A stretch of DNA of 64,000 nt from Nannobrachium achirus (Eukaryota; Chordata; Actinopteri; Myctophiformes; Myctophidae), in contig OY997647.1 of the NCBI GenBank assembly GCA_963921795.1, positions 58,206,565-58,270,564 on the forward strand, in the 5' to 3' direction. Both the position numbers and the translations under genes were made by a program. Below, piece by piece: positions 7,924 to 57,570 of the stretch. The notes beneath the pieces were generated by a model, which had not been told where the DNA came from, did not search any database, and worked only from the letters and a program-made list of their open reading frames with translations. The first letter of the stretch is position 1, and each line of letters begins with the position of its first letter.

Positions 7924-8323
7924 ATAGGGGTGTCACAATTATTACATCATCGTCCAATCGCGATTATTTTACATACTCGCGATTATTTTTCATAATCGTC
8001 GTAATCGTTTCCATGGTGAAAAATCTTCATATATTTTTTTAAAAGTAAAAAAATAGTGGAAATAGCAGATCTACAAGCCCACAACGCGTCGCGATGAGCT
8101 TGTAGATCGGCTATTTCCAATATCAATGTTCTTTTTTAAGTATAACGTTGTCAAATATGTCAGTAATTTCTTTGTATATTTAGGTTATGTGTCATATCTA
8201 CCACGTGCAACTTCAAAGCCTAAAAGCCAAACAGAAATGTGATTGTCAAAGACAAAAACACAATTAAATCGTTAATCGCAGTTATTTGAGTGACAATTAA
8301 TCGTCACAATCGTGACAGCCCTA
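7924..8323. mobile_element. hAT-like MITE, TAGGGCTGTCACGATT family, copy 1
   Basis: Ends TAGGGGTGTCACAATTATT and ATCGTGACAGCCCTA are inverted to each other; 8-bp flanks ATAGTGGA and GAGGTGGA are similar, as in a diverged 8-bp duplication. The centre (8057-8119) is the recurrent hairpin, here with outer arm TGGAAATAG. Related copies are at 44187, 47193 and 48484. No coding capacity. Confidence 0.8.
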
Positions 8324-8614
8324 GAGGTGGAGTGTGCATGCTGTGCATGTACGTGTGCATGCGTGTGCGTACATCTGAAAAGAAAAGGCGTTGATTTGAT
8401 TTGCTTGATGAAGCAAAGTGAAACCTTAACAGTATGAAGAAAGTTGGGGTTGCTGAATGCCCTGAATGTACTTCAGAAAGATAATCATTTCTGCGTCAGG
8501 AAATGTCACAACAACAACACAGGCTATTAGATCAGACATACAAGAGAGAGAGAGAGAGCTCCAAAGACATCCACAGGCAGGAGAGAAAGAAGCAAGGGAG
8601 GGGAAACCTGCCCT

Positions 8615-8856
8615 GCGTGTGTGCGCGTGCGTGCGTGCGTGCGCGCGTGTGTGTGTGTGTGTGTGTGTGTGTGTGTGTGTGTGTGTGTGTGTGTGTGTGT
8701 GTGTGTGTGTGTGTGTGTGTGTGTGTGTGTGTGTGTGTGTGTGTGTGTGTGTGTGTGTGTGTGTGTGTGTGTGTGCTTGCGTGCGTGCGTGCGTGCGTGC
8801 GTGCGTGCGTGCGTGCGTGCGTGCGTGCGTGCGTGCGTGCGTGCGCGTGTGTGTGT
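8615..8856. repeat. Long compound GT/GCGT microsatellite
   Basis: GCGT, then about 130 bp of uninterrupted GT, then about 65 bp of GCGT. Long ORFs of Cys/Val or His/Thr across it are artefacts of the repeat. Confidence 0.97.
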
Positions 8857-8931
8857 TCCTATCATTCAGGGTGACCTGCAGCAGCAGGCATGCTGTTATG
8901 CAATTCATGCTGTCAAACACATGTCTGTATA

Positions 8932-9095
8932 CGTGCACACCTCGGTGCACATACACACACACTCCTCTCAGTTCTCTGTGCATGTACGTACACACACACA
9001 CACACACAAGCACACACACACACACACACACACACACACGCACACACACACACACACACACACCTCTGTGCACGCACACACACACACGCGCGCGC
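8932..9095. repeat. Interrupted (CA)n tract
   Basis: CA-rich with GCGCGC and CTCTGTGC interruptions; opposite polarity to the GT tract just upstream, so the two could pair. Confidence 0.9.
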
Positions 9096-53590: not shown

Positions 53591-54623
53591 AGCTAGACTA
53601 GTTGGATTAGGGACATTTTACCAGTCTATTAGAATGAACCAGCTCAGTGCCCTTGGGGTTAGACTCAGAGTGTTCACCCTCAGACTGCTTGGCACTCAGC
53701 ATCAAGGGTTGGTTGGGGGAAAGTCCCTGCCACATACAGTACTAGCATCATGTCCAGGAGGTGTACTTGTACATCAAGTTGCATCATGCTATGGAACCTA
53801 TGACCGCCATGACCTATGGGCCACAAGGGTTACTTACTTATTAGAAAGAAATAAAACAGAACCTATTGCTCTAAGAGCAGGTTTAGTAAAATGCTTCCTT
53901 GACTCAAAATACGGGGATCGATTTCCCTCACAGACTCAGAGTTCAGGCTGATGAGTTAACACTGTTTGATTAAAAGTGATAAAAAACGAAAGTGCTCTAA
54001 AAACGCTTGTTGGAGCCCTCATTCAATGCCACTTTGACAATGCTTTCACCTACGGTAACTATTGGTTCTCCAACATCTCAAAGACACTATAACAGCAGTG
54101 ACGTCATTACGTGCGCGTCCCGCGTCTTAGACGCGTTCACGTTGCCTAGAGACGCATTCACGTCATTGTCCTGGGGTCCCACGGACGCATCGCCTCCATT
54201 GGAGTCCACGTTAAAATAATTTACCACGTCGCAAAATTTTTTTTTTTTTTAAAGTCCACAGACGCCACCATTGTTCATGGGTGAAGGCATGCTACTTTAC
54301 GCTACGTTAACACAAATGAAATCCGCGTAGAAAGTCTTAAAACAGACAATAGAACTAACAACAGTGTGTTTTGAACGCCATTTTGTGTGCCCGTACATGG
54401 TCACAGAATTCAATGGGTGCCTGAGTTTTAGCGTAGCACCGGGCCGCTCTCTGACCATAGTGGCACAGCGTGTTAGGTGATACACCAAAAAGGGTTCCCC
54501 CACAAAACGTGTATGGCAAGGCACGGCGCAGAAACGTGACGTCTCTACACTGCAGCGACATGCGCATTGACAGCGAGCGGTCTCCGAAAATAACTTGAAT
54601 AAAAAAAGAAACCAATTAAAATA
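53591..54623. other. Non-coding; no gene recognised
   Basis: A 105-codon ORF at 53634-53951 has no recognisable domain and is probably chance. ACGCGTTCACG/ACGCATTCACG repeats near 54130-54160. Confidence 0.4.
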
Positions 54624-55389
54624 CCAGTAAGACTCCCTAATCGGGAGATAAGCGACCGTTGGTCGCTTATCTCCACAAATAGGCCAAAAGTTTGTTTTAC
54701 CAATTATTACACTCTATGTGAACATTTACATCAACAAATCCCAAGTACTATGCAGAACGACCCATTTCAAGTTTTTAATGTACAACAATATTTAGAAAAT
54801 AGGTCTACAAGCTGACAGTCCTCGTCCCTTATATTCCCATAGGTTATATGGAGATCTCAGTGTTTGTCAGTCCTTGTTCATTTATGCCCATATATGGACA
54901 TCTCTATATCTACTGTAACAGTCCTTGTCCCTTTATGCCCATATATGGAGATCTCTTAACTGTAAGGCCTTGTCCCTTTTATGCCCATATATGGATATTC
55001 CTGATGTCATCAGTATATGAACATATATGGGCTTTCTGATATGCCCATATATGGAGATCTCTTAACTGTAAGCCCTTGTCCCTTTTATGCCCATATATGG
55101 ATATCCCTGATGTCATCCGTATATGCCCATATATGGGCTTTCTAATATGCCCATATATGGAGATCTCTGTATCTCCATATATGGGTATAAAAGGATACTT
55201 CAGGTCTGACATCAGGTTTGTTTATATTGGGTTGCTAGGTTTGACATCACAAACTCTATGGGCCATCTGACCTAGAAATCTATATTTGGGCATAGATGAC
55301 TCATCGTGACCTCATCACACGTCGACCGCACGTGTGACGTGCGGTCGACCGCACGTGTGACCGACGGACGGCCGGTGGAGGTTTTCATA
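54624..55389 (-). mobile_element. Helitron-like element with CArG array, tandem copy 1 (766 bp)
   Basis: Minus-strand 3' end GGGAGTCTTACTGG at 54624, preceded by stem CTCCC/GGGAG and hairpin AAGCGACC/GGTCGCTT. Contains eight exact CCATATATGG (54888, 54939, 54985, 55045, 55091, 55127, 55151, 55175). Near the other end lies the palindrome GTGCGGTCGACCGCAC. Confidence 0.6.
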
Positions 55390-56155
55390 CCAGTAAGACT
55401 CCCTAATCGGGAGATAAGCGACCGTTGGTCGCTTATCTCCACAAATAGGCCAAAAGTTTGTTTTACCAATTATTACACTCTATGTGAACATTTACATCAA
55501 CAAATCCCAAGTACTATGCAGAACGACCCATTTCAAGTTTTTAATGTACAACAATATTTAGAAAATAGGTCTACAAGCTGACAGTCCTCGTCCCTTATAT
55601 TCCCATAGGTTATATGGAGATCTCAGTGTTTGTCAGTCCTTGTTCATTTATGCCCATATATGGACATCTCTATATCTACTGTAACAGTCCTTGTCCCTTT
55701 ATGCCCATATATGGAGATCTCTTAACTGTAAGTCCTTGTCCCTTTTATGCCCATATATGGATATTCCTGATGTCATCAGTATATGAACATATATGGGCTT
55801 TCTGATATGCCCATATATGGAGATCTCTTAACTGTAAGCCCTTGTCCCTTTTATGCCCATATATGGATATCCCTGATGTCATCCGTATATGCCCATATAT
55901 GGGCTTTCTAATATGCCCATATATGGAGATCTCTGTATCTCCATATATGGGTATAAAAGGATACTTCAGGTCTGACATCAGGTTTGTTTATATTGGGTTG
56001 CTAGGTTTGACATCACAAACTCTATGGGCCATCTGACCTAGAAATCTATATTTGGGCATAGATGACTCATCGTGACCTCATCACACGTCGACCGCACGTG
56101 TGACGTGCGGTCGACCGCACGTGTGACCGACGGACGGCCGGTGGAGGTTTTCATA
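55390..56155 (-). mobile_element. Helitron-like element with CArG array, tandem copy 2 (766 bp)
   Basis: Exact-length copy of 54624-55389 abutting it directly, same orientation; I saw one difference (GCCTTGTCCC against GTCCTTGTCCC). It repeats the eight CArG motifs. Confidence 0.6.
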
Positions 56156-56205
56156 CTAAACTGCGACCTTACGGTCGCAACTAAACTGCGACCTTACGGT
56201 CGCAA
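56156..56205. repeat. Two tandem terminal hairpins TGCGACC-TTAC-GGTCGCA
   Basis: ACTAAACTGCGACCTTACGG unit repeated twice, ending CAATAAC. The same hairpin closes copies 1 and 2 at 24618 and 25650, so it marks the other end of this family. Confidence 0.85.
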
Positions 56206-57570
56206 TAACTTACAAATGTAAACGTTTGCTGACGGCGTCACGTGTATTTTCCGACAGTATTAAATTCATTATGTATTGTATTTATTATGTTAGTGTATAT
56301 ACTGAGTGAGTCTGATCACTGCTCAGACAGCGACCCCGCCTCCTCTCCCCCTGTCCTCTTCATTCAATAACAACTGGATACACGCGCTATTGTTTATAGA
56401 TGTGGTGGATGGACATTGGACAACGTGTTAGAAGCCACACAGGTCTTCATTGCGTCTTTACAACAATAGCGACGATTAACGTCGTGGTGAACATGGTCAA
56501 ATAACCTTTATTGGCTCAACTACAACACGGAGGAAGCAAGCTAGCCTAGCATGTATGCTATCTGAGACAGTATGTATGTAGCCTAGGCTGCCTAACTGTT
56601 TGATTGATTATAGCGTTTTCGTGGCGGCGCCGTCCCTTTGGTGGTCCGCCGGGGCCGCGGACCACCGCGGCCGCCTGTGCCTTGCCCTCCCGCATCCATA
56701 GAGGGGCGGCACGTCCCTCTATGATCAACCGTTCAAAACAAAAGTAGCCGATCTACAAGCAATCCCAATCCACTGTTTTTGACCCAGTCCACTGGTTCTC
56801 TGTACAGCAGAGCAAACACAAGCACGGCAGAGAGCATTTCCCCCATTCCATAGAAGCAGTAACAGTACAAACAAGAGACATCTCACTGAGAAGATCCATA
56901 TATTATCGATGTATATAAAATAACAGGTGGCTGTTGATTATGAAGACTCTGTAAAAGCTTCTATCTGCGCCCCCAAGTGGTCAACATCCGATATTACCGG
57001 TTCGGTCCGGGTTATAATTAATTACCGAACCGGTATAAAAAAAATCAAACCGTCACATGACTATTTGGAAGTATTAAAATTGTAAGATTTGGAATTGTGG
57101 TTAATTTCTTTCAGACACATTTCTACGTAACATGAACATAACCATATAATAACCAATTCAAGTTAAATGCTGCACTTTGTCAAAAATGACATGACGCGTT
57201 GAATTTTTGTGGGACCCATAAAATATCCCTGGGACTCATCCGAAAGACCCTTCTTGGGTCCCGGGACTCATTACATTAAAAACCTATTAACATCACTGTA
57301 ACAGCTATGCTTCAGACCTCCCAAAACAACCAACACATTTTGCAAGTCTGGGATGGTGATCTTAACTTTCTGGTCAGTCATGCTAAAACAGCAGTAAAAG
57401 AAGATACTTGTGTTCCCTTTTCTGCTAGTATAAGTCTGAAATAAGTTGAAAGAAACTAGTATTTGATAGTAGGAATAAGGCAGGGGTCCCCCATTTTGAA
57501 ACACTAGAAGCTAGCGTCTAGTCGGCGACCTGGCCAACTCGGAACAATGTAAATAGGGAATGAATGCCCC
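56206..57570. other. Non-coding with GC-rich hairpins
   Basis: 56635-56730 holds GGTCCGC/GCGGACC and CATAGAGGG/CCCTCTATG hairpins next to a half recurrent hairpin (AGTAGCCGATCTACAAGC near 56744). TACCGGTTCGG/CCGAACCGGTA near 56995. No gene. Confidence 0.5.

Follow-up and report, generated by a model that had tools for sequence, protein, structure and literature searches.

The genome of the myctophid fish Nannobrachium achirus raises a question about the interiors of miniature inverted-repeat transposable elements (MITEs), a class of elements which is usually defined by its ends and whose interiors, of unclear origin, are often treated as filler. In a stretch of 64,000 nt (assembly GCA_963921795.1, contig OY997647.1, positions 58,206,565 to 58,270,564 of the forward strand; in the following the window), one palindrome, here called the cassette, recurs inside elements whose ends look unrelated. 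What kind of unit is it, and how did it come to be shared by these hosts? A preliminary description of the window had proposed either that a small foldback parasite inserted into the centre of existing palindromes or that hairpins were exchanged between MITEs. The cassette is a discrete and polar unit with sharp, symmetric edges, it is the same in otherwise unrelated hosts of the window, and its copies number about half a million. Our leading but tentative explanation, on which we are close to evenly divided, is that a palindromic passenger moved from one MITE family to another, the probable routes being break repair or template switching, and was then amplified by its hosts.

The shared unit is a palindrome of 71-75 bp, (R)AAAATAGC[A/C]GATCTACAAGCTCACAACGC...GCTTGTAGATC[T/G]GCTATTTT(Y), which folds into a hairpin and has the arm consensus (R)AAAATAGC[A/C]GATCTACAAGCTCACAACGCGTCGC; it has no coding capacity to speak of. 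With a profile of the arm 29 arms were detected in the window at E<1e-7 and grouped into 18 cassettes. At E<0.001 the same profile gave no matches in 349 kb of reversed sequence and in 338 kb of doublet-resampled sequence, which rules out a chance origin of the recurrence. Most of the 23 places listed in the preliminary description were recovered; those at 34499, 51330 and 53252 are not significant alone (arm E 0.007, 0.13 and 0.16) and the one at 56744 is marginal (0.0008). When eight hairpins were folded as DNA, the three intact ones reached -38 to -47 kcal/mol (z -13 to -16). Among the five decayed hairpins only that at 39783 clearly beat its shuffles (z -4.2), and those at 36864, 34477, 51325 and 53248 were not clearly better than shuffles (z -0.7, -0.9, +1.0 and -1.1). 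A covariance model scored 36868-36944 (E 2.5e-7) and 39783-39844 (E 3.7e-4), and it also scored unrelated palindromes such as 24841-24922 (E 3.7e-8); it is therefore not specific and was used as supporting evidence, never as sole evidence. The cassette at 36868 rests on its arm match (E 3.2e-9) and that at 39783 on its place in the second copy of host D. At the Rfam gathering threshold none of 4227 families matched in the window. Bacterial and viral relatives were rejected, as pattern searches of the collections viral_contigs and genome_contigs yielded either nothing or single 19-mers that lacked the palindrome. No paper describing such a cassette was found, subscription journals and repeat databases lying outside the coverage of this literature search, and sequence fragments searched in print led to four papers, none of which is relevant judged by its title.

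The limits of the unit were determined from a conservation profile based on the best arm of each of 62 flank contexts. Arm positions 0 to 22 carry 1.1-2.0 bits, apart from a variable A/C/T position among them with 0.73 bits, and the bases near the apex vary more, mostly at 0.3-1.1 bits. Before position 0, 1.33 bits remain at position -1 and 0.95 bits at position -2, a G or A stands at position -3 in 86%, and everything further out is at background, so that conservation ends sharply at AAAATAGC across all 62 contexts; choosing the best arm per context inflates the conservation within the arm and does not shift the position of this edge. The edges of BLAST matches obtained with the seeds B, G and E160 likewise lie mostly at AAA(A)TAGC / GCTATTT(T). 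Moreover, the cassette is polar, a C in one arm often standing opposite an A in the other: among 55 full hairpins the combination was A/C in 9, C/A in 6, A/A in 28 and C/C in none, the remaining 12 having another or an unreadable base in at least one arm. The orientation is opposite in hosts B and C. The whole unit thus is an inverted repeat with sharp ends, as is required of a transposon with terminal inverted repeats (TIRs). A direct-repeat test on 15 hairpins found no target-site duplication at the cassette edges, a 2-bp TA duplication being possible.

For a comparison of the hosts the cassette was cut out together with about 20 nt of either flank. Among ten host segments of the window the only match at E<=0.01 was a 20-nt piece of a nested CAGTGGTTCTCAAACC MITE, which rules out one host family for all of these segments; that the hosts are unrelated, as reported before, is hereby confirmed for the segments compared, and the outcome named beforehand as speaking against a separate cassette, namely that the hosts prove to be one family, did not occur. 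In 349 kb of sequence, 170 arm flanks fell into 65 clusters, 46 of which are single and may include decayed members of larger families. The same sequence has 62 full hairpins, of which 7 were dropped; the 55 that could be assigned formed ten host families with 25, 8, 8, 4, 4, 2, 1, 1, 1 and 1 members; a first clustering at 60% flank identity was discarded because nearly everything merged. TIRs starting with CAG or TAG, as expected of hAT-type elements, were read for B1, B2, B4, C, D1, E38, E160 and the outer element of A1. The 8-bp duplication is exact in E38, matches at 7/8 positions in B4 and at 5-6/8 in the others, and is uninformative in host C, (CA)n. Element A ends in AACCCATTYAG with TTAA-like flanks (ATAA/ATAA for A2, CTAA/TTAA for A4). 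Judged by these ends, the carriers appear to be mostly MITEs with hAT-like ends and one with TTAA/piggyBac-like ends; the hAT-type naming is presumptive and follows from end motifs. The A arm was found near TTAACCCATTTAGG in 6,891 genome matches and near CAGGGGCGTCA in 92, in the latter case at variable distance and with match lengths of 39 to 68 nt, so that two kinds of ends are combined with the same core.

Host B1 (7925-8323, plus strand; ends TAGGGGTGTCAC / CGTGACAGCCCTA), a putative hAT-type MITE, contains a cassette with shortened apex at 8060-8116 (plus), its A-arm on the left and its C-arm on the right, and host B2 (TAGGGCTGTCAC..GTGACAGCCCTA, 48484-48908, plus) contains an intact one at 48618-48686 (plus; DNA fold -44.4 kcal/mol, z -15.8). 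Half cassettes are present in host B4 (44187-44557, minus; ends TAGGGCCTGTCACG..GCGACAGGCCTA) at 44427-44458 (plus; arm E 1.5e-9) and in B3 at 47196-47232 (minus; arm E 3.6e-14), the latter host being broken at the hairpin apex with loss of its left half. Host C (CAGGGACGTGC..GCACGTCCCTG, 13131-13695, plus) lies within a (CA)n array and contains an inner foldback element at about 13303-13560; its cassette at 13384-13454 (minus) is inverted relative to that of B, belongs to a GCC apex subtype and folds as DNA with -47 kcal/mol (z -15.6). In host D1 (TAGGGATGGGACG..CGTCCCATCCCTA, 43637-44013, plus) the right arm of the cassette at 43748-43793 (plus; outer arms TTTGCCAAAA/TTTTGGCAAA) is mostly deleted. 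D1, with its hAT-like ends, is located between imperfect direct repeats of 47 bp (91%; 43586-43632 and 44012-44058) and shows no convincing 8-bp duplication. The second host D copy, recognised by host homology of 39597-39780 to 44010-43826, holds the decayed cassette at 39786-39843 (minus). Further half cassettes were located in host E38 (TAGGGCATTCACG..GGTGAATGCCCTA, 38614-39088, plus; 8-bp duplication CATCCGTC) at 38711-38748 (minus; arm E 4.1e-13), in host E160, a hAT-like MITE (CAGTGGTGG..CCACTG, 15855-16292, plus), at 16014-16042 (minus; arm E 2.6e-10), and, with the second arm missing, at 15252-15285 (plus; arm E 1.4e-11) in a one-ended family F element (15113-15285, plus) which has an end like CAGGGGTCTTCAAC and is broken near the hairpin apex. 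For the decayed cassette at 36870-36941 (minus) the host was not recognised.

Element A carries two hairpins. The core A1, with cassettes at 12236-12310 (left) and 12537-12607 (right; both plus), is carried by a hAT-like outer element CAGGGGCGTC..GCGACACCCCTG (12158-12717, no strand assigned), an end of this kind lying near the A arm in the 92 genome matches given above. In A2 (16362-16954, plus; ends AACCCATTTAG..CTAAATGGGATAA) the two inverted hairpins contain the cassettes at 16409-16479 and 16839-16909 (both plus), and in A4 (42958-43536, plus; ends AACCCATTCAG..CTGAATGGGTTAA) those at 43016-43086 and, with shortened apex, 43434-43492 (both plus). The cassette had been thought to form the termini of one element, which has to be corrected, as the ends AACCCATT..AATGGG of A2 and A4 lie 44-58 bp outside the cassette. 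The cassettes of A3 are located at 29218-29288 and 29653-29720 (both plus), the right one being truncated at its base, where a 65-bp duplicate of the left flank begins. A3 lies between identical 65-bp direct repeats (29113-29177 and 29720-29784), and since the right copy starts at the base of the right hairpin, the right end of A3 is missing; the repeat looks like a repair product rather than an ordinary duplication.

In the genome (1.66 Gb, 564 contigs), the core 20-mer AATAGCAGATCTACAAGCTC gave 197,761 forward and 197,337 reverse matches with at most one mismatch, and its reversed control gave none. The copy number was estimated from 14 stretches of ten kb (140 kb) placed without sight of the matches, six stretches on contig C1 being excluded since they had been placed on listed matches. 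The 14 stretches contained 46 cassettes, in 19 of which both arms passed the threshold, and extrapolation gives about 545,000 units or 1.8% of the genome; the recurrence first described from the window is therefore real and extends far beyond it. Among 101 cassettes in the first 288 kb, 46 had a single arm that passed the threshold; 40 of these 46 retain the arm's outer part, and 19 reach the apex end of the model, the other 27 stopping earlier. In the 349 kb the one-armed share is 58 of 120, with 20 of those loci fetched for short alleles. Deletion or simple decay may account for the loss of the second arm. The nearest other cassette belongs to the same host family in 44 of 51 cases, compared with a mean of 12.8 and a maximum of 24 in 2,000 shuffles. 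The copies have thus multiplied together with their hosts, after few acquisitions.

The cassette at L032:3099 adjoins a (TA)n array, and a weak cassette-like stretch at 34479-34545 of the window lies between (CA)n and (CT)n; hairpins may border microsatellites.

The bases next to the cassette were analysed for pairing across the hairpin in ten families from the 349 kb, four of which are single-copy. Within the 8 bases adjoining the unit, 43 of 80 positions pair, the expectation from 10,000 shuffles of right flanks among families being 26.1 (maximum 41; p 1e-4); at more than 10 nt from AATAGC the excess is no longer significant. The observation that outer arms differ by host and still pair therefore holds, over a reach of only about 8 nt. 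Most simply, this pairing would have arisen by later template switching between the arms, not by insertion into ready-made palindromes. The proposed insertion into pre-existing palindromes is not supported: the cassette has no target-site duplication at its edge, the outer pairing stops after about 8 nt, and the short F alleles are deletions of varied form. The hairpin exchange proposed as the other possibility would be compatible with everything seen.

Hosts with and without the cassette were counted with exact host anchors at the gap lengths given here, and short alleles proved rare. Host B gave 9 short (gap 15-45) and 796 full alleles (105-135), host C 5 short (10-40) and 412 full (88-118), and host F 231 short (5-35) and 3,329 full (78-108); for B and C, full alleles were judged by length. 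Twenty short F alleles were fetched and showed varied breakpoints with 0-4 bp of microhomology, the consensus fit being too poor to place three of them (L043, L046 and L049). Among 100 short F alleles listed and counted by eye, 8 are AAAATATTTTT, the short palindrome predicted for an empty site, 6 are CTCTTTGGCTA, and the rest are varied forms occurring once or a few times each. The check proposed in the preliminary description, whether the empty site is a shorter palindrome, thus turned up the expected form, among many deletion forms and with no clean empty site. Short F alleles look like secondary deletions of a fragile palindrome and not like sites that were never occupied. For host E160 the arrangement with the right cassette edge was counted 1,064 times and a motif without this edge, drawn from fish sequences, 7 times, these 7 being, judged by the motif itself, possible cassette-free copies. 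The one local relative, L035:2969, was rejected as a candidate for a cassette-free E160 copy, since it contains a half cassette and, upstream, a possible apex remnant (30 nt, 83% to the L011 cassette, E 5.6e-4).

If the cassette is a passenger spread between MITE families, its rare arrival in a new family would take place when a break at the hairpin apex is repaired or when the template is switched while a gap is being filled. The repair would copy the module, sometimes together with neighbouring bases, from one MITE into another, and the transposase of the new host would then multiply it; template switching between the arms after arrival would make the bases adjacent to the hairpin match and so produce the host-specific outer pairing. 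Palindromes are known break sites which give hairpin-capped ends (PMC7999016, partial text), arms of inverted repeats are homogenised by template switching between them (PMC8604942, partial text), and in animal TIR elements captured interiors arise by gap filling and fork switching (PMC8277862, partial text). A stronger form of this explanation, namely a nuclear, non-coding palindromic parasite of transposons of about 73 bp which has no transposase relationship of its own, spreads horizontally between superfamilies via the repair of palindrome breaks and has reached about half a million copies on many transposases, is doubtful at present. Several results weigh against spread as a passenger. 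The short-allele counts, E160 and L035 gave no clear case of a cassette-free host predating the cassette, no two near-identical host copies were seen that differ by the module at a clean junction, and no transfer was caught. In self-BLAST the alignments B1-C and A-C extend about 17-30 nt into the AT-rich flank on one side. The B2 cassette is flanked, 9-16 nt out, by a T-rich direct repeat of 16 nt with one mismatch (0 of 300 shuffles), which could be a duplication left by an insertion; it is the only significant one among the 15 hairpins (B1, p 0.12). Finally, in copies found through their host flank, arm identity exceeded flank identity in 41 of 51 scored copies, and the greater likeness of the arms may, suggestively only, reflect selection instead of neutral riding.

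The lack of a clear older host without the cassette and the one-sided extension of A-C and B1-C are in line with an unlikely alternative in which a single MITE lineage had the hairpin as its original interior and its ends were swapped repeatedly. The occurrence of the A arm near two kinds of ends fits it as well, and a precedent has been published in the CMITEs, whose interiors are better conserved than the TIRs (PMC2872659, partial text). However, hosts B, C, D, E38, E160 and A of the window share nothing beyond the unit and its near flank, the distance from cassette to end differs among hosts, and the varying match lengths near CAGGGGCGTCA also speak against a common interior. We consider it rather improbable, too, that the cassette is a tiny transposon, a near-perfect palindromic MITE inserted by a transposase at AT-rich palindromes like AAAA|TA|TTTT with the flanking TA as duplication. 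The sharp and symmetric edges, the polarity and the presence in both orientations and many contexts would be accounted for, and in the 8 listed F alleles that read AAAATATTTTT the cassette is lost exactly between TA and TA. Against this, the AAAA beyond the TA shows almost the same conservation as the interior of the unit and therefore looks like part of the unit and not like a target, the significant close direct repeat of B2 lies away from the edge, and AAAATATTTTT is one of many deletion forms, with CTCTTTGGCTA recurring too.

Selection on the hairpin for a benefit to the carrier, be it fork pausing, binding of a transposase or host protein, or small-RNA production, seems improbable to us by a wide measure. 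The excess of arm over flank identity argues for it; in this set 41 of 92 copies were unscored, having no arm of at least 60%, and many such loci had been fetched for lacking an arm, while 3 of 11 queries gave no usable result. Host B shows the reverse of the trend, with arm identity exceeding flank identity in just 3 of 7. Per-cluster diversity also hinted at a strongly conserved unit, a measure biased by the alignment and by the use of the arms to find the copies, and the test on flank-found copies is fairer and weaker. In an alignment of seven hairpins in register (slide +1), 91.4% of cells were paired, compared with 29.6-49.2% at other slides, and 9 of 37 pairs had changes on both sides. 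Yet homogenisation of the arms or gene conversion gives paired changes without selection, four of the seven hairpins come from one family, deletions are tolerated as shown by the 231 short F alleles, and no Rfam family was matched at the gathering threshold.

Besides the cassettes, the window contains on its minus strand a retroelement at 518-6445 with overlapping frames and a reverse transcriptase (RVT_1, E 1.2e-23); a tyrosine recombinase (Phage_integrase, E 1.5e-4) and an RNase H (E 2.1e-4) scored below the curated cut-offs. Such domains would, we presume, be typical of a DIRS-type element. At 17590-22205 a unit of about 1.54 kb occurs as three tandem copies (~97% alike), a tandem duplication of 766 bp lies at 54621-56156 (99.9% identity over 770 bases), and a palindromic element of 661 bp is located at 46048-46708 (79% self-complementary; no cassette detected).

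One palindrome in many hosts with different ends suggests that interiors can be swapped again and again and can make up about 2% of a genome. Since the host families are countable and the copies number about half a million, the movement, breakage and growth of palindromes in animal genomes becomes directly testable, and thousands of copies can be scored for deletions, breaks at the apex and extension of the outer arms.

The carriers resemble, as we take it, hAT and piggyBac-type MITEs of fishes, a comparison that concerns the carriers and not the cassette. The nearest published parallels found for the cassette itself are the CMITEs of corals and the GC clusters of yeast mitochondria. The CMITE families of Acropora are of about 100 bp, piggyBac-like, flanked by TTAA duplications and present in about 1,600 copies; their origin is given as unknown, and new elements arise by nested re-use (PMC2872659, partial text). 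Here, too, an interior is conserved across families with different TIRs. In contrast to the corals, most window hosts have hAT-like ends, those of hosts B, C, D, E38 and E160 starting with TAGGG or CAG and not being TTAA/piggyBac-like; moreover, the shared unit forms a near-perfect palindrome, and about half a million copies of it are present. Insertion sequences which target bacterial REP palindromes are likewise mobile DNA entering palindromes; there a coding element enters the palindrome, whereas here the palindrome is the passenger (PMC1525189, partial text). The GC clusters differ in being mitochondrial, in the size of GC42 (42 nt), in their putative AG target duplications and in not being linked to transposons in that text, and they are similar to the cassette as short palindromes that proliferate, merge and are shuffled, and whose loops change more than their stems (PMC4478555, partial text).

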